From Zelonia costaricensis (taxonomy: Eukaryota; Euglenozoa; Kinetoplastea; Trypanosomatida; Trypanosomatidae), in NCBI GenBank assembly GCA_030849075.1, contig JASAOO010003050.1:1-19199 (forward strand): a DNA stretch of 19,199 nt. The letters run 5' to 3'. Below are positions 5,311-16,075 of this stretch, one piece after another. The first letter of the stretch is position 1. Every line of letters begins with the position of its first letter. The notes below the pieces were generated by a model that was given only the letters and a program-made list of their open reading frames with translations, was not told where the DNA came from and did not search any database. The translations under genes and the position numbers were made by a program.

Positions 5311-7908
5311 ATGAGTTTCACAAGCAAACGCGCCGCGGACGGCGACGAGCTGTCGCCCCCAATCGAGATGGAGGCGCGCCCCCGCGGTCGCGGCGTCGTG
5401 CCGCCATCAGTCCTGACCGCCGACATGCCGCCGTCGCCGACGTCAGCCACGCCGCTCATCACGGATGGTTCTAGCGGCCTGCTTACCGTCGCCTCCCACT
5501 CGCAGACGCCCGGGGAGTCGCCGCTGCCGGGCCTCCTCTCGCCCACGGGCCCCACCTTTCCGCAGCTGCCCACGCTCGCGGCGGAGTCGCTGAACCCAGA
5601 GCGCAACGGCGCACCACCACAGCTGACCGCCCCGCAGTCCCATCACGAGGAGCAGGCGTCAGAGGAGTGGACCAACGACCTGAATCGGAGAGCGTCGTCT
5701 AGGGACGCTGGGGACCGGGGACGCGCAGCCGAGGCGGCACCGCAGCCGCAGCGCTGGCAGCGTGCCTCGGGCTCCCTGTCAGCCAGCAGCCGCCCCTACC
5801 GAGGGCCGCCCGAGATCTCCAACCGCGCACCCCGCGCGCGGTCGGCCGGCATGTCGCCGTCGAGCTCGCCGATGAGCACTGGCGCCGCTGAGGCTGTCGG
5901 TCACCCCCCCCGCACCTTTCAACCCGGCAGCAGCAGCAGCGCAGGCAACGGCGGTGGCGGTGGTGCCGCGCCTCCAGCGGCGCGGTCCACCTTCCCGCGC
6001 TCCGGCGCCTACCTCGAGGCGGTCGATAGCTCCATGCCTACCCAAGGTGAAGCCCCGTTTCTCGGCTCCGTCTCCACGATCAGCAACTTCGAGTCAACCA
6101 CGAACGCCGCGGCGCGGTCGGTGCTGTCAGCGCCGGACATCCCGGACGCCTCGACCACCCTGGCAGCGCTGCCGGACACGCCCAGGGCATCGGTGCGGTG
6201 GGCGCACACGAGTGTCCCGCAGAGGGGCGTCGCCGCACCGCCGCCGCTGGTGAGCTTCCCCGCGCAGCGAGCGTCCGCCGTCTCCGCGGAGCAGCCGGTG
6301 CACGACGACAACGGCCAGCGCACGCTCTCCATGACCGACACCACCACCTCCTCGCCCGGCCCAGAAGCCGGGGCGGGGACATCGTCTGTCATTATGGTGG
6401 CATCGCTCAGCCCGCAGCAGCTCTTCCCCGCCCCGTCATCGCGCCGGCAGCAGCAGCGCTTCCAGGAGGAGCGGCGCACCTCCCGATCGACGTCCGTCAG
6501 TCAGTCAGAGAACGCCGTGCCCGGGACGGCACCCGCCTCGGCCGCATCCACGCCCCGCGCGATGGACCACATCGTCGTTGACAACACCGAGTTTGCCATT
6601 CTTCGTGTGCTGCCGGAGCGCTCCCACTCCACGAGCCGCGGCGCCCCGGGGACGGAGGACGCTGCCAGCACCGTGCGAAGCCCCAGTCGATACGCGGTGG
6701 CGGCGGTGGTCAACAACAACAGTAGCACCACGAACAACAACGCCAGCACATCGCACACGCAGCGGGAGGTGAGCCGCAACGCCGAGTCGGCGGACGAGAT
6801 CGGGTGGCGCGGGGTGGCGGACTTCGCATCCCTCGCGAGCGGCCTGCCACCGGTTAGGGGCGACTCGATAAGCGGGCTGGCCCTTCTCCAGCAGGCCCGC
6901 ATCGCCACCTCAGAGGAACGCCGGGTGCGGCTGCTTTTCCACAACCGCCCGCACGTGCAACTCGAGAAGCGACCGCTGGTGGTCACGAACGCCGTGCTGG
7001 ACCGCACTTCGTGGGAGCAGCCGCTGTGCTACCTGCCGCTCTTCTTCCCGTGCATGCGCAACACCTTCTACTCCGTGCCGCTCAGCACGGTGATGCGGAC
7101 CTCGTGGGAGGCGGACCTGCCGGGCCCCTCCCAGCCCAGTGTCGCCTACTCCGAGTCGACGACGTCGCAGTCACCGGTGAACGCGCCGGCAGTGCCGCCG
7201 CGGCGGGACGGCAACTACGCCGAGGTGCCCCGCACGCTCATGACCCCCACCGTGTCGATCTCCACCGTGTACCACGTCCCCATCACCGCCCCACGCCCCG
7301 TGCTCACCCGCGCGGCATCCCCGCACCGCCGCGAGCGGCAGGAGTCGCTGCTGCACCGCCCTGCTGCCGCCCCGCCGACCACCGGCCCCAACCCGCTAAG
7401 CCGCGCACCCGCCCGCCCGCTCCTGAACCACGAGGACGAGATGGTGATGCTGCGCAACGAGGTGGCACGGCAGCCGCTGAGTCTCGGCAACAACGTGAGC
7501 CACCTGCTCTACCGGTGCTTCTGCGTGCGGTGCGCGATTGCGTCGCAGGCGCAGGCGATGCAGGCGGACGCCGACATGCGGGCCGCGCACCCAACCCCCT
7601 TCCCGTGCTGCACCTGCCTGGGCGTAGAATCGAAGTCGTACTCGGACATTCTGTGCCTGCTGTGCGTGCTCGACGTGCTTACGCTCGGGGTGCCGTGTGG
7701 GTGCTGCTGCTACCACGGCCTCGGCTCCGCGCTCTACGGGTGGCACCTGCGCTATCTGCTGCGCGCCCGCTACCGCATCTTCGCATGGACCTCCATTGAC
7801 CTGCTGACGACCTGCTGCGTGCCAGGCCTGGCGGTGGACCAGCAGGGGGCGGAGCTGCTCCTCAGCGGCACCCCAGAGGCCACCGTCGGGCTGCAGTTCA
7901 TGGCGTAG
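5311..7908 (+). CDS. Conserved protein with C-terminal Cys-rich PLAC8-like domain
   Basis: The predicted protein has 865 residues. Residues 1 to about 490 are Pro/Ser/Ala/Thr-rich and probably disordered, with an Asn-rich patch near residue 470. A more ordered, aromatic-rich block at about 535-600 contains WEQPLCYLPLFFPCMRNTFY. The last 140 residues are Cys-rich: Cys736/738/741, Cys766/767/769, a hydrophobic CLLCVLDVLTLG segment followed by CGCCC, then RARYRI, Asp830 and Cys835-Cys836 followed by AVDQQ near 841-845. The ending R-x2-R-x-Y-x-I ... D ... CC ... A-x2-Q matches the C-terminal half of PLAC8 (DUF614) domains, which are small Cys-rich and often membrane-associated. This assignment is by eye, and the domain is divergent, with an elongated middle. 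ATG 5311 is the first ATG of the frame; a TTG at 5296 extends it but is not a likely start. The biochemical function is unknown. Confidence 0.85.
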   Translation: MSFTSKRAADGDELSPPIEMEARPRGRGVVPPSVLTADMPPSPTSATPLITDGSSGLLTVASHSQTPGESPLPGLLSPTGPTFPQLPTLAAESLNPERNGAPPQLTAPQSHHEEQASEEWTNDLNRRASSRDAGDRGRAAEAAPQPQRWQRASGSLSASSRPYRGPPEISNRAPRARSAGMSPSSSPMSTGAAEAVGHPPRTFQPGSSSSAGNGGGGGAAPPAARSTFPRSGAYLEAVDSSMPTQGEAPFLGSVSTISNFESTTNAAARSVLSAPDIPDASTTLAALPDTPRASVRWAHTSVPQRGVAAPPPLVSFPAQRASAVSAEQPVHDDNGQRTLSMTDTTTSSPGPEAGAGTSSVIMVASLSPQQLFPAPSSRRQQQRFQEERRTSRSTSVSQSENAVPGTAPASAASTPRAMDHIVVDNTEFAILRVLPERSHSTSRGAPGTEDAASTVRSPSRYAVAAVVNNNSSTTNNNASTSHTQREVSRNAESADEIGWRGVADFASLASGLPPVRGDSISGLALLQQARIATSEERRVRLLFHNRPHVQLEKRPLVVTNAVLDRTSWEQPLCYLPLFFPCMRNTFYSVPLSTVMRTSWEADLPGPSQPSVAYSESTTSQSPVNAPAVPPRRDGNYAEVPRTLMTPTVSISTVYHVPITAPRPVLTRAASPHRRERQESLLHRPAAAPPTTGPNPLSRAPARPLLNHEDEMVMLRNEVARQPLSLGNNVSHLLYRCFCVRCAIASQAQAMQADADMRAAHPTPFPCCTCLGVESKSYSDILCLLCVLDVLTLGVPCGCCCYHGLGSALYGWHLRYLLRARYRIFAWTSIDLLTTCCVPGLAVDQQGAELLLSGTPEATVGLQFMA

Positions 7909-9827: not shown

Positions 9828-11780
9828 ATGCTGGATGTCGCTGGCCAGCAGCAACTCCGCGCGCTGCACGAGGAGCAGCACCGGGTGCGGACGGCTGTGG
9901 AGGGGCACATGGCGACATACGAGGCTGCTGTAGCGGCACACGCCCGTGCGCAGCAGCGGGAGGCGGAGCTGCGAGCGCTGCTGCACGCCGCAGAGGCGCG
10001 CACTCGGCAGCTGCAGCAGGTCATGGACGGCGCCGCGGCACACCTGGGTGACGCCACGCTCCGCCTCAGCCACCTCCAATACACCCGCAACGCGTTGCAG
10101 AGTCGACTGGCCGAGCACATGCACTGCCAGCGTGCGGCCATTCTGCTACCGAGCACGTCGTGCGACGCCGGTGATGATGACGAGGACGACGCCGCTGCTG
10201 CCGCTGCTGCTGCCGCCGCCTCCCGGCTGCCCCCACTGCGACTGTGCCGCATCGACTCGTTTAGCCTCCTCGACACGCGTGCCGGCGAGGGGCTTGCGGT
10301 GGACCTGGTCGGTGTGGCTCGGCGGCCCTCACTGCCAGCTGCGGACCCCACGGGTGCCGCGCTGGAGCCATGGCGGACCGGCATCTACGGCGACGAGGCC
10401 GACCCAGACGGTGACGTCGCGGCAGGAAGCGGGACCGACGACACCACCGCGAGGGTGGGCGAGGACGGCGACGGGGAGGTCGAGGCCGCCCTCCCGGCGG
10501 CACCCACGCTAACCTCCCTTCTCCTGCAGGTGGTGCGCGATGTCCTGCAGGGGTACCACCACACGTGTCTCTGCACCACCGCCGCCGCCGCAGACGAACC
10601 CCAAGAAGACGGGGGCGGCGCAGACCCGAGTGCCTTGTGCCTCCGCCTCCTGCACCTCCTCCAGCGCGAGGCGCTGCGGTGCGGCACGCGGGCGCTGAGT
10701 GTCACTCTTGCTGTCGGCCGCGTGGACGCAGACGCCGGGGTTTGGCGGGACGTGCTGCACCCTGCGGCGGTGCGCCACGGCCAAACCACGCTCGCCGTCG
10801 ACGCCGTGCCTGCGGAGAGTGGCGACACGAACTGTGAGGAGGATGTCTACGCTTCCCACCATCGCAGGTTCTCCCTGAGCGCAGGCGGTGGGAGCGGCTC
10901 CAGTAGCGGACGCGCAGGGTCGCACGTGGCGGCTGCTGCCCCGTCCGCGGCTGCCTCTGTGCCCCGACTCGCCGGCATTCCAATTTGCTCCCTCGAGGAG
11001 GCGGCGTACTGGCTGGGGGAGGGGGGGGTGCCGTCGACGGACCCCGGCGGCGTTGTCGTGGTGCTTGGCGTGGACAGCCAGGCCGCCGGCGGTGGGCTGC
11101 GCAAGAGCCTCTTGCGCATTCTCGGCGAGTCCACCGCTGCCCCGCGCGGCACACCTCGCAGCAGCGGGGCGGTCGCACCCGCACTGCGGCCTTCTCCGTC
11201 GGTGTTCGCGCTCTACATGCGGGACGTGCTAGAGGCGGCGGCGTTGGCGGCCCTGCCCGGGGCGGGGCCAGGGCTAGACACTGGTGCCATCGCCCAGTAC
11301 TTAGATGGTGCGGTGGGGCCGACCCCTCTGCCCGCCAACAAGCTGCGCGCTATCGCCGCAGCCGTGTCGTCGGGGTGCCCCTCCAAGCCGCAGGCACAGC
11401 ATGGGCCCTTGGCGGCGGTGCGCGCCTCCGCCTGGGACGCTGCGTGGGCGCTGTGGGCGGCCCTGCTGCGTCCCGTGTTCGGTGGAAACAGCAAGACCGT
11501 GTGGGTGCACCACCACGGGGAGAGCGGCCTATCCACGCACAGCACCGCGAGCAGGCACGCCCACCGCGGCAGGGCGGCAGGCGCGATGGCCGCAGCACCG
11601 ACGGCGGATGCGGGCGCGGTGCGGCGGCGGGGCTCTGTCGCATGCAGTGCCCCGTCGGACCCGGTCGATGTGCTTCGCCTGTGCGCGGTTTTTTGTCGCC
11701 TCGTGCGCCACGTCGCGGTCCCGACGGAGGTGTCGCCGGAGCTGGTGCAGCTGCTGCGCGGTGGCAGGGATCGGCGCTGA
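9828..11780 (+). CDS. Coiled-coil protein with a degenerate kinesin-motor-like C-terminal domain
   Basis: The predicted protein has 650 residues. Residues 4-105 are rich in Leu, Gln, Glu, Ala and Arg with heptad-like spacing (coiled coil), followed by an acidic/poly-Ala linker (about 117-135). The remainder aligns by eye with a kinesin motor. DVLQGYHHTCLC (Gly242-Tyr243) sits where kinesins have vlxGYNxtifAYGQT. SVTLAVGRVDADAGVWRDVL (291-310) matches the EIYnExvrDLL strand and helix. LAGIPICSLEEAAYWLGEG (381-399) matches the stretch after L8. FALYMRD (460-466) matches the switch I strand. GGNSKT (552-557) matches the GGNSKT of helix alpha 5, and VLRLCAVFCRLVRHV (615-629) matches the TLxFAxRAkxI helix. 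The P-loop GxxxxGKT, SSRSH and DLAGSE are all missing. Motor homology C-terminal to a coiled coil recalls kinesin-14 and its non-catalytic partners Vik1/Cik1. The gene itself is certain; the kinesin reading is inference. Confidence 0.85.
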   Translation: MLDVAGQQQLRALHEEQHRVRTAVEGHMATYEAAVAAHARAQQREAELRALLHAAEARTRQLQQVMDGAAAHLGDATLRLSHLQYTRNALQSRLAEHMHCQRAAILLPSTSCDAGDDDEDDAAAAAAAAAASRLPPLRLCRIDSFSLLDTRAGEGLAVDLVGVARRPSLPAADPTGAALEPWRTGIYGDEADPDGDVAAGSGTDDTTARVGEDGDGEVEAALPAAPTLTSLLLQVVRDVLQGYHHTCLCTTAAAADEPQEDGGGADPSALCLRLLHLLQREALRCGTRALSVTLAVGRVDADAGVWRDVLHPAAVRHGQTTLAVDAVPAESGDTNCEEDVYASHHRRFSLSAGGGSGSSSGRAGSHVAAAAPSAAASVPRLAGIPICSLEEAAYWLGEGGVPSTDPGGVVVVLGVDSQAAGGGLRKSLLRILGESTAAPRGTPRSSGAVAPALRPSPSVFALYMRDVLEAAALAALPGAGPGLDTGAIAQYLDGAVGPTPLPANKLRAIAAAVSSGCPSKPQAQHGPLAAVRASAWDAAWALWAALLRPVFGGNSKTVWVHHHGESGLSTHSTASRHAHRGRAAGAMAAAPTADAGAVRRRGSVACSAPSDPVDVLRLCAVFCRLVRHVAVPTEVSPELVQLLRGGRDRR

Positions 11781-12487: not shown

Positions 12488-15400
12488 ATGAGTCATGGCA
12501 GACGCATGCTGGAGGCCCAGGCGCAGAAGGAGCGCACCTCCGGCACCGCCCCAGACGGTCGCCTCGACGACGGCCACCTCCGAAACGGCGCCCGCGCTCT
12601 GAATGATGACGGCACCCCCGTGCGACCCTCCCGCGGCGCGCCGGCCGACGAGACCGGCGACGGCGGCGATGCCCTTCTCACCTCCCCACCCCCGCGGCCC
12701 ACAGTGCAGCTCGGCCAGAGCCGGTCGAGCTCTGCCGCCGCAGCTACGCGCCCCCCGCGACTGAGCGGCGTCGCCCTCTTCGCGGCCGGCGGCGGCGGTG
12801 GAGGTGGTGGCGGCGCCGCGTCAGTCTCCACTGCCCTCACCGCGGCGCCACGGGTCTCTGCCTCGCGCGGGCCGGAGGACAGTGCGACCCGCAGCCCCGA
12901 CACCTCACCACGCCGGCGCCGCTCCTCCACCGGGACCACAGCCGCTCCCGCCACGCGTAGCCGCAGTCGGACAGGCGGCAGCGGCAGCGGCACCGCCCCG
13001 TCCGCGGCGGTGCGCTACCCCGTCTCCCGCCTCAACGTGGCGTCCGCCGCAGCGACAGCGGCGCCGCTTCACGACGAGCGGGACGAGCGCAGCAGCAGCA
13101 GCAGTCGCCGCGCCCTGCCGGCCGTGACGACGGCGGCAGCGCTGCTGCACCGTCAACCCCCGTCTGCCACCGCGGCCGCGCCGGCACCGCGCGCAGCCCC
13201 GCCGCCGGCGCCCGTGACAGCGGCGCTGGGCGGCCCTCTCGCGCCCGTCTTCGCCACTGCTGCCTCTGCAGGGGTCGCCCCCCGCCCGCCGCCGCTCAGC
13301 TCCAGCCCGCCGTACGCGGAGATGGCGATGCCGATGTCGCCAGCCTCCCCGCCGCTGCGGGCGGGGGTGTCGCCGCGCATGCTGCCCCTGCACCCCACCC
13401 GCGCCGACGGCAGCACCGCCGCGTCCCTCTCGCGCTCCCGCGCCGCGAGCACGGCGACGACGACGGCTGTGGGGGCCCCGACGCAGTCCCCCTCCTCGCA
13501 GCCGCCCTTTCCCCCAACGCAGCCGGACTCGCAGGTGTCCCCGTACGAGCTGCGCCAGGCGCAGCCGTACGCGATGCCGCCGACACCGCCTTCCCACACC
13601 ACGACTGGCACGCAGGCGGTGGTCGCGGGGTCACACGCAGAGGAACCGCACGCAGCCTGGCGCTCCGCCCCGCCCTCGCCGTTGCCGGTGACCGCCGCGG
13701 CCCCTTTCGGAGCCGCGCCGCGCCTATCGCCGTTGCCCCCATCGCGGACGGACGCGGGCGTCAGCGAGGCCACTGCCGGGGCGGTGAGAAGGGAAGAGGA
13801 GGAGAACGGGGAGGAGCGGGAGCGAGACGGCTACGGCGGCGTGGACGACGGCTTCCACGACCTGGACACGCCGTTGACGCGCATGATCGACGCGCGGCAT
13901 TGTCCGTACATGAACGACTTCAGCGGCTTCCACAACAACGGCAATGACTGCTACGGGTGCAGCCTACTCACGATGCTGCTCCGTAGCCCGGTCTTTCGGC
14001 GTGCGCTGCTGACCTCGCCCATCATCGCCGCCGCGCGGCGCTACGAGGCGCTGCTGACACGAAAGACGGAGCGGCGGGTCTTGTGGATGAGCGGGTACGT
14101 CGACACGGCGCCATCGACGGTGGGTGGGGGGGGCGGCGCCAAGTCCGGCAAGGCAACAGTGCCGCGCAAGCGACCGCGCCCTGCTCTGGATGCGGACGCA
14201 TCGGTGGCCGAGGTGTGCGGTCTGCCACACGACAGCGCGGCACAGACGATCGACGTCGCGTGCACATTCACCGCGGCGGTGCAGCACACACTGGACGTTG
14301 TGGAGAGTTTCGGTGTGGAGGAGCTGGAGGAGTCGCTGGAGGTGGACCTGGAGACGGGGCGGGTGCCGACCACGCTGCACAGCGCCCTCGCCGGCCTCGC
14401 CCGCTCGCAGCGCTGGCGCGAGTACATGACGCACGTCATCAACGCCGACCACACGCGTGCGGCGGAGCGGCAGCGGCTCATTGAGCTAAAAATACACCAC
14501 GACAATGACCGCGTCTTTGACGGGCAGCAGTACACGAACGGCATTCGTCTGAATGCGGTTGCCGCCGCCTTCACGGGCGAGTTCTTCCTGGGCGATCAGG
14601 AGGACGCCCACGAGCTCTTCGTCGCCATCATGGCGAAGCTCGAGGCGGAGGCGGTCGCGTTTCAGCAGCGCTGCGCGGAGGTGCTGGCGCGCCGCTCCGC
14701 CGCGTCGGACGGGGAGTCGACCACGGACACGACATCAAACCGAGGAGGACGCGCCGAGCCCGCGGAGAGCGGAGGAGATGAGGCGGGGGTGAGACAGAGC
14801 GCGGGCGTTGTCGCGGTGCCCACGCCGCCGCCGTCGTCGTCCCTGTCCACCGAGGTGGCGGAGGTGTGGGTGAACACGCTGGTGCAGACGCGGCTCCTCA
14901 ACATCATCCGCTGCCGCACCGCCGGCTGCCAGCACGAGATCGTCACGGACGAGATCTACGTAAACCTCTCGCTGCACATTCCCGACGAAGCCGCCGCCGC
15001 CGCCGCAGTCGCCCCAGCGGCAGCGCCGGCTGCTGCGCCTCTGGCAGAGTCGTTGCCGTTTTCCCCAACCCCCGCAGCGGCGGCGGCATCGACCTTTCCC
15101 GCCCTCCCCACCGCCGTCGCAGCGCCACCCGCGTCCGCCACGGCGACGCTGATGGCCATCGTGGGCGCACCTGCGGCGTCCGAAGAGCCCGAGCCCGCCC
15201 CCGCCCCTGCCCCCGTCTCCGTTGCCCAGCTGCTGCGTGATTCAATGGCGTACGAGGCGCTGCGCGACTACCGCTGCGACGGCTGCGGCTCCACCACCTC
15301 GCAGTTCCAGGGCGGCTGCTTCTACACGTGCCCGCCGCCGGTGCTCGTGCTGCAGCTGAAGCGCTTCGCCACGCAGTTCGTGAACGGCGCCATTCACATC

Positions 15401-16075
15401 GACAAGAACGCGCGCCGGGTCGCGTGCGAGGACGTTCTCATCGTGCACGCGCTCCCCAGTGCAGAGGAGCTGCTGGCGCACCACCTCCGCCGCAGTCGGT
15501 TCGAAGCGGGCAAGGCACGCGGCGGGAACGGCGACTGGAAGCACGGAGGCGCTTCCGAACTTGCGACGCCAGGCTTCGGCCTCGACGCCGCTGGCGCCGC
15601 GTACTATGACCCAGAGAGCAAGTGCTTCTCCAGCGAGCTGCAGTCTGCGTATGAGAGCGGCGCTGGCAGCGCGGAGGCGGGGCAGGTGTGGGCGATTCGC
15701 TGTGTCTACCGGCTGCGGAGCTGCGTGCTGCACCTCGGGCAGAGCCTCCACTACGGCCACTACGTGGCCGACTTTGCCGTGGATGGAGAGGCGTCGCCGA
15801 CGAGGTCGCCGTCATCGCCGTCGCTGTCGCCGCCTTCGTCCGACTTCGACGGGGACGCCGAGGGCGACAGCGCTCGACACAGCTGCGGCTGCCGCCGCCG
15901 CTGGCGCCGCGCGAACGACGAGCGAGTCGACGTGCTGCCTGACGCGGTGGTGCGCACCCGCCGCACGGGCCGCTCTGATACCTACCTCCTTCTCTACGAG
16001 AGGGTGGCGGAGGAGTGGGTGCGGTGTGCTGCAGCGGCGGTGTTGCCGCGACCAGTCTACGAGAGCAGCGAGTGA
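12488..16075 (+). CDS. Ubiquitin-specific protease (USP/UBP, peptidase family C19)
   Basis: The predicted protein has 1195 residues. Residues 1 to about 445 are Ala/Pro/Ser/Arg low-complexity with a poly-Gly run near 100-111, then an acidic patch. The Cys box FHNNGNDCYGCSLL carries the nucleophile Cys488. LGDQEDAHELF (701-711) is the family QQDAHEF motif. Cys809/Cys814 and Cys930/Cys933 fit the zinc-ribbon pairs of the fingers, VLVLQLKRF follows the second pair, and the His box LHYGHYVADF carries His1091; YLLLYERV closes the domain. Low-complexity inserts separate these blocks (about 745-790, 830-915 and 1105-1140). Such enzymes remove ubiquitin from proteins in cytosol or nucleus. In the Cys box the usual Thr before Cys is Asp, and the usual YxNSxLQ is YGCSLLT, so activity is likely but not certain. 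ATG 12488 is the first ATG; the open frame extends left only to a GTG at 12287. Confidence 0.92.
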   Translation: MSHGRRMLEAQAQKERTSGTAPDGRLDDGHLRNGARALNDDGTPVRPSRGAPADETGDGGDALLTSPPPRPTVQLGQSRSSSAAAATRPPRLSGVALFAAGGGGGGGGGAASVSTALTAAPRVSASRGPEDSATRSPDTSPRRRRSSTGTTAAPATRSRSRTGGSGSGTAPSAAVRYPVSRLNVASAAATAAPLHDERDERSSSSSRRALPAVTTAAALLHRQPPSATAAAPAPRAAPPPAPVTAALGGPLAPVFATAASAGVAPRPPPLSSSPPYAEMAMPMSPASPPLRAGVSPRMLPLHPTRADGSTAASLSRSRAASTATTTAVGAPTQSPSSQPPFPPTQPDSQVSPYELRQAQPYAMPPTPPSHTTTGTQAVVAGSHAEEPHAAWRSAPPSPLPVTAAAPFGAAPRLSPLPPSRTDAGVSEATAGAVRREEEENGEERERDGYGGVDDGFHDLDTPLTRMIDARHCPYMNDFSGFHNNGNDCYGCSLLTMLLRSPVFRRALLTSPIIAAARRYEALLTRKTERRVLWMSGYVDTAPSTVGGGGGAKSGKATVPRKRPRPALDADASVAEVCGLPHDSAAQTIDVACTFTAAVQHTLDVVESFGVEELEESLEVDLETGRVPTTLHSALAGLARSQRWREYMTHVINADHTRAAERQRLIELKIHHDNDRVFDGQQYTNGIRLNAVAAAFTGEFFLGDQEDAHELFVAIMAKLEAEAVAFQQRCAEVLARRSAASDGESTTDTTSNRGGRAEPAESGGDEAGVRQSAGVVAVPTPPPSSSLSTEVAEVWVNTLVQTRLLNIIRCRTAGCQHEIVTDEIYVNLSLHIPDEAAAAAAVAPAAAPAAAPLAESLPFSPTPAAAAASTFPALPTAVAAPPASATATLMAIVGAPAASEEPEPAPAPAPVSVAQLLRDSMAYEALRDYRCDGCGSTTSQFQGGCFYTCPPPVLVLQLKRFATQFVNGAIHIDKNARRVACEDVLIVHALPSAEELLAHHLRRSRFEAGKARGGNGDWKHGGASELATPGFGLDAAGAAYYDPESKCFSSELQSAYESGAGSAEAGQVWAIRCVYRLRSCVLHLGQSLHYGHYVADFAVDGEASPTRSPSSPSLSPPSSDFDGDAEGDSARHSCGCRRRWRRANDERVDVLPDAVVRTRRTGRSDTYLLLYERVAEEWVRCAAAAVLPRPVYESSE

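Follow-up and report, generated by a model that had tools for sequence, protein, structure and literature searches.

A predicted non-catalytic kinesin-fold protein encoded in Zelonia costaricensis

In a 19,199-nucleotide stretch of the Zelonia costaricensis genome (contig JASAOO010003050.1; hereafter the window), an uninterrupted open reading frame (ORF) of 650 codons runs on the + strand from an ATG at 9828 to a stop at 11780. Structure prediction indicates that the C-terminal part of its product very probably has a kinesin fold, and the catalytic motifs of kinesins are missing from it. An original prediction made from the sequence had described this ORF as a pseudo-kinesin; its observation is confirmed here and its kinesin interpretation is supported. 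From the computed ORF, conservation, predicted fold and motif loss, we infer dimerization, a partner, a docking role and an inability to bind nucleotide. We propose that a coiled coil spanning roughly the first 100 residues would dimerize the protein and that the C-terminal part would retain the motor fold, unable to bind or hydrolyze ATP, this dead head serving as a protein-docking or targeting module. Through the coil the protein would pair either with an active kinesin or with a second copy of itself, and the complex would thereby be positioned, as described for the inactive KIN-B. For this proposal as a whole, we consider the chances to be about even.

Conservation and motif loss in the protein family

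G+C at the three codon positions of the ORF is 0.78/0.58/0.81. This pattern is of the coding type, although the third position is less extreme than the 0.85-0.87 of the window's four other long genes for which it was measured. Position 2 is the lowest in all six blocks of 100 codons, and position 1 exceeds position 3 in the first two. When searched against its own genome (28.7 Mb, 755 contigs; nine candidates scored), the protein matched itself alone, and on this ground a recent duplicate of another gene was rejected.

Three protein searches yielded nine relatives, giving a family of ten members. The closest relative is 92% identical to the window protein; the others, at 39-44% identity, come from Leishmania martiniquensis, L. 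orientalis, L. braziliensis, L. tarentolae (P0008), Porcisia hertigi and Novymonas esmeraldas, plus two more. All six source-named relatives are annotated “hypothetical protein”. Judged by these relatives, the protein belongs to the Leishmania group. The family may be wider, since the searches reach only proteins sharing exact words (about 8000 candidates scored per search). The third of these, based on a profile, found no further relatives and also missed three known members (P0001, P0002 and P0009), so that the family cannot be said to be missing from Trypanosoma or Crithidia; within this limited reach, no P-loop-bearing intermediate orthologue of the kind suggested by the original prediction was found. 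LxGYH occurs in all ten members, with GYH invariant in the alignment, as is FCRLVRH in the C-terminal helix, and GGN[SAC][KR] is present in nine.

The loss of the P-loop, SSRSH-type and DLAGSE-type motifs holds across the family: Walker A (GxxxxGK[ST]), switch I (NxxSSR) and switch II (D[LIV]AGxE) were each found in 0/10 members. Where a P-loop should follow beta3, members read TTAAAAD, TSADGSC, TSSDGC and similar. Away from the P-loop site, a looser GxxxxG[KR][ST] was seen in 1/10 members (residue 142), and GK[ST] on its own likewise in 1/10 (residue 516). SSRS occurs in three members just before alpha5, and RxRP in three members at residues 507, 729 and 743, with none earlier than 507 in any. 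ATP use by the family is very unlikely because the catalytic motifs are absent in all ten members, and nucleotide binding as a whole has presumably been lost.

A residue expected to contact microtubules has changed as well. In an ungapped alignment running backwards from GGN, the own-genome kinesins (e.g., HVPFRSSPLTMLLKDSLGGNSK and YIPYRDSTLTWILKDNLGGNSK) carry YR or FR in 8/8 read, and the family reads LDAAWSLWAALLRPVFGGNSK, the kinesin arginine being replaced by Ala in nine members and Val in one. This alpha5/L12 arginine contacts tubulin in kinesins. In 10/10 members the motor-homology region is acidic, with net charges of -7 to -24 (-11 to -19 on columns filled in at least nine), compared with -10 to +16 (median +3; one at -10, the rest at least -5) for the motor matches of 28 own-genome kinesin-matching ORFs. 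The comparison is indicative only, since a longer stretch, acidic linkers among it, was taken for the family. These 28 were chosen from the 65 places in the genome matching PF00225, the Pfam kinesin family, and include the two most degenerate.

Predicted fold and sequence evidence for kinesin homology

AlphaFold2 was run on the ten family sequences with the window protein as lead, giving a mean predicted local distance difference test score (pLDDT) of 47.8. By block, residues 1-80 scored 75-90 and much of 231-430 scored 60-86, with values below 50 from alpha4 to alpha6. The N-terminal coiled coil named by the original prediction was modeled as one long helix. Its strongest hydrophobic period is 3.55; 2/1000 permutations were as strong near 3.5, and 81/1000 reached the same height at some period. 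Beyond it, the elements listed in Table 1 from residue 228 onwards, together with a strand at residues 322-325 and two extra helices between alpha4 and alpha5, follow what we take to be the kinesin order of alpha1, beta3, alpha2, beta4, RDLL helix, beta5, alpha3, beta6, beta7, alpha4, alpha5, beta8 and alpha6.

A second run with the Novymonas protein (44% identical) as lead repeated the same order (mean pLDDT 54.6), and structural searches supported the kinesin motor fold for both models; a fold other than kinesin, which the original prediction had named as refuting it, was obtained with neither lead sequence. The two runs are not fully independent because the same ten sequences were used. About six of the eight strands of the kinesin core were modeled, beta1 and beta2 not being among them. 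As predicted, the fold is better than chance, and we consider the structural evidence stronger than that from sequence comparison.

The blocks on which the original prediction relied all lie where it placed them: DVLQGYHHTCLC at residues 238-249, TTAAAADEPQEDG at 250-262, WRDVL at 306-310, LAGIPICSLEEAAYWLGEG at 381-399, GGNSKT at 552-557 and a C-terminal helix with LRLCAVFCRLVRH at 616-628. Its extent for the motor homology, about residues 230-630, stood less well at the N-terminal end, as the homology may begin nearer residue 100. Among the 50 structural matches listed for the first model, 36 start at residues 93-142, and AILLPS and GLAVDLV resemble, by eye, beta1 and FxFDxVF. Counting against such an early start, pLDDT is below 50 there, and the 50 matches listed for the second model all begin at residues 180-193, which correspond to alpha1. 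The Vik1 head was not recognized among the 50 matches listed per model; 4etp_A, a Kar3-Vik1 chain, was listed for the second.

At the sequence level, a block-chain test placed 8/11 kinesin blocks and beat 400/400 column shuffles and 400/400 local shuffles, with several blocks placed where the AlphaFold2 model disagrees. The order of the blocks, which the original prediction had called kinesin-like, is borne out in the predicted fold but is not significant on sequence, as 24/400 permuted orders and 5/62 circular shifts do as well. Sequence comparison thus gives modest evidence for kinesin, which alone would not settle the fold.

Several results weigh against the proposal. A kinesin by profile is a protein matching PF00225 above the cut-off, and the Pfam kinesin model matched 0/10 members even at E<=10; the same model matches 65 places in the own genome at E<=0.001, none of them in the contig of the ORF. 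Scans with Pfam and NCBIfam returned weak background matches only, many in the coil, phmmer against PDB sequences gave little, and a profile search of them returned no kinesin. A hidden Markov model (HMM) of own-genome kinesins gave a best full-sequence E of 0.0057 (ten-sequence set) and a best single stretch of 0.074, in inconsistent registers. HMM-HMM matches were weak or misregistered. With hhalign against eight own-genome kinesins, only the GGNSK block was matched over 23 columns (LLRPVFGGNSK; Prob 12, P = 0.0024 for one comparison, without shuffles against this template; Prob 8.8 with all columns). The best match to a broader own-genome kinesin alignment was out of register, with the alpha1 block placed on alpha5. 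None of 200 column and none of 200 local shuffles attained its score of 25.35 (highest 25.33), but 110/200 and 88/200, respectively, attained its summed posterior. Both models, built on the same ten sequences and without a control fold, have a low mean pLDDT (48 and 55), and most of alpha4-alpha6 lies under 50. Docking, finally, is argued mainly by elimination and in part from the charge comparison qualified above. The lack of a profile hit for any orthologue, the second refuting condition of the original prediction, thus went against it; we read the missing hits as extreme divergence because the predicted folds agree.

Possible roles of the dead head and known inactive kinesins

Docking or targeting appears the most likely role because the alpha5/L12 arginine is lost and the domain is acidic, and for the same reasons docking in the manner of KIN-B fits better than a microtubule foothold. 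According to PMC10987093, KIN-B of the kinetoplastid chromosomal passenger complex is an inactive motor in which the P-loop, both switches (I and II) and many conserved alpha4-L12 residues are missing, and the window protein resembles it as a predicted kinetoplastid kinesin fold lacking catalytic parts. In KIN-B, however, which works with KIN-A, the motor is N-terminal and coiled coils follow it, whereas the window protein has its coil at the N terminus, its head at the C terminus and no profile match. We rejected the window protein as a KIN-B orthologue on account of this reversed (predicted) architecture. A 637-aa frame elsewhere in the genome (L010, - strand, G000:C538:34500-39500) has a degenerate N-terminal motor (GASSSGRFYTLYGS, no switches) and is plausibly the likelier KIN-B orthologue. 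A second degenerate kinesin (L009 829-3009, - strand, G000:C620:51500-56500) reads GPPESGRSQTLYGS at the P-loop and has neither SSRSH nor DLAGSE; it matches the Pfam kinesin model with 38.2 bits (cut-off 29.3) and contains a CENP-E stretch (E = 3.1e-07).

Yeast Vik1 and Cik1 consist of a coil followed by a C-terminal head. The comparison with them drawn by the original prediction fits the predicted architecture of the window protein, a coil and then a C-terminal motor homology domain without an ATP site. PMC4338441 and PMC3544905 describe the Vik1/Cik1 heads as kinesin-like folds without an ATP site that bind microtubules and so give Kar3 a foothold. By analogy, the coil of the window protein could pair with a kinesin of the kinesin-14 type, whose motor is C-terminal, while the dead head could bind microtubules without nucleotide. 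The shared layout and the microtubule binding of heads without an active site speak for this, as does an own-genome kinesin (L003) whose frame closes with the motor (in the piece examined, residues 495-825 out of 831). We nevertheless regard it as rather unlikely, since the contact-helix arginine of 8/8 own-genome kinesins is lost throughout the family and the domain is acidic in every member; neither charge nor alpha5 residues support the microtubule binding that the original prediction had suggested.

A homodimeric structural protein, for example of the axoneme, basal body or spindle, whose dead head acts as a building unit, without ever having a motor as partner, also seems unlikely to us. 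A dead head that lacks the usual contacts with tubulin has no need of a motor, and chain 4y of PDB 9e5c, a 661-residue component of the Trypanosoma brucei flagellar doublet, ranked sixth in the Foldseek search with the second model; at a TM-score of 0.23-0.25 and a root-mean-square deviation of 22.9, however, this chain is a lead only. Chain 4y may itself be a kinesin-like structural protein.

More improbable is that the protein has an alpha/beta structure unrelated to kinesins, its GGNSK and GYH having arisen by chance and AlphaFold2 having forced a known fold. This reading would account for the lack of a convincing profile hit at any threshold, the non-significant block order and the low pLDDT of models without a fold control. 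A decaying pseudogene would explain the loss of all catalytic motifs but is rejected as highly improbable, given ten uninterrupted protein sequences, invariant blocks persisting at 39-44% overall identity and the second-position G+C minimum in all six codon blocks.

Other divergent kinesins offer a looser parallel. PMC2867816, which builds a broad kinesin inventory from Pfam-model matches, treats Cos2 and VAB-8 as atypical or very divergent kinesins omitted from a kinesin tree, and notes that Cos2 may have no motor activity; the window family is divergent too, and has itself no Pfam kinesin match at E<=10. The term pseudokinesin is used for a fungal orphan group in PMC5076506. As predicted, the window family belongs among the non-catalytic kinesin-fold proteins, an established kind. 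Searches of open-licence literature on kinesins and dead motors listed no report of the window protein, nor any mention of four family locus tags, which did not include those from L. braziliensis or L. tarentolae. Kinesin is unmentioned in PMC7617938, and the kinesins in PMC8906236 and PMC8885694 are others that bear catalytic motifs.

If the predicted kinesin fold is right, Pfam-based kinesin inventories would be incomplete because the Pfam model does not detect the window family, and scanning hypothetical proteins of kinetoplastids by structure could bring further ones to light. The family would also add a case of a motor fold that persists without enzymatic function, here placed C-terminally as in yeast Vik1/Cik1, and the orthologue in L. 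tarentolae, a laboratory-kept species, makes it testable. It is conceivable, if doubtful, that the Leishmania group has its own analogue of Kar3-Vik1, a catalytic kinesin heterodimerized with the dead-head protein, arisen separately from the yeast system and with a new docking surface in place of the tubulin contacts. More widely, kinetoplastids would then hold a concealed set of kinesin-fold proteins below profile thresholds.

Coordinates and neighboring genes

Table 1. Features of the predicted pseudo-kinesin ORF (window positions; H, helix and E, strand in the first AlphaFold2 model)
Feature	Position	Strand	Evidence
Whole ORF, 650 aa, predicted pseudo-kinesin	9828..11780	+	open frame; nine relatives; one match in genome
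N-terminal long helix/coiled coil, residues 2-103	9831..10136	+	H2-103; pLDDT 75-90 to residue 80, then 66, 45; period 3.55
Possible beta1, RAAILLPS, residues 102-109, without RxRP	10131..10154	+	by eye; CENP-E match 6m4i starts at model residue 93; low pLDDT; unaligned in second run
Possible FxFDxVF strand, GLAVDLV, residues 155-161 (AFTYDLV in 5/9 relatives)	10290..10310	+	alignment; block score 4.9; low pLDDT
alpha1 and beta3, LTSLLLQVVRDVLQGYHHTCLCTTA, residues 228-252	10509..10583	+	H228-240, E244-252; GYH invariant
Lost P-loop site, TTAAAADEPQEDG, residues 250-262	10575..10613	+	GxxxxGK[ST] in 0/10 members
alpha2, residues 267-284	10626..10679	+	helix; pLDDT 86 and 83 for 271-290
beta4 region and RDLL-like helix (WRDVL), residues 289-316	10692..10775	+	E289-299, E306-308, H310-316
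beta5/alpha3, RLAGIPICSLEEAAYWLGE, residues 380-398	10965..11021	+	E380-386, H389-398; conserved block
beta6-beta7, GVVVVLGVDSQAAGGGLRKSLLRILGE, residues 408-434, lost-switch region	11049..11129	+	E408-418, E424-434; NxxSSR, D[LIV]AGxE 0/10
alpha4-like helix, residues 459-475	11202..11252	+	H459-475, low pLDDT
alpha5, GGNSKT, beta8, residues 528-563	11409..11516	+	H528-551, E555-563, low pLDDT; hhalign 23-column kinesin match
alpha6-like C-terminal helix, residues 612-630	11661..11717	+	H612-630, low pLDDT; FCRLVRH 10/10

Two further ORFs of the window lie on the same strand. The 865-aa ORF at 5311-7908 (+) has no Pfam match at E<=1, and its Cys-rich C-terminal part gives only a sub-threshold PLAC8 match at E = 0.62 (11.5 bits, cut-off 34.4). 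The ORF at 12488-16075 (+) encodes a ubiquitin hydrolase (UCH match, 69 bits), in which 254 profile positions are scattered over residues 480-1170 with long Ala/Pro/Ser-rich stretches between them.
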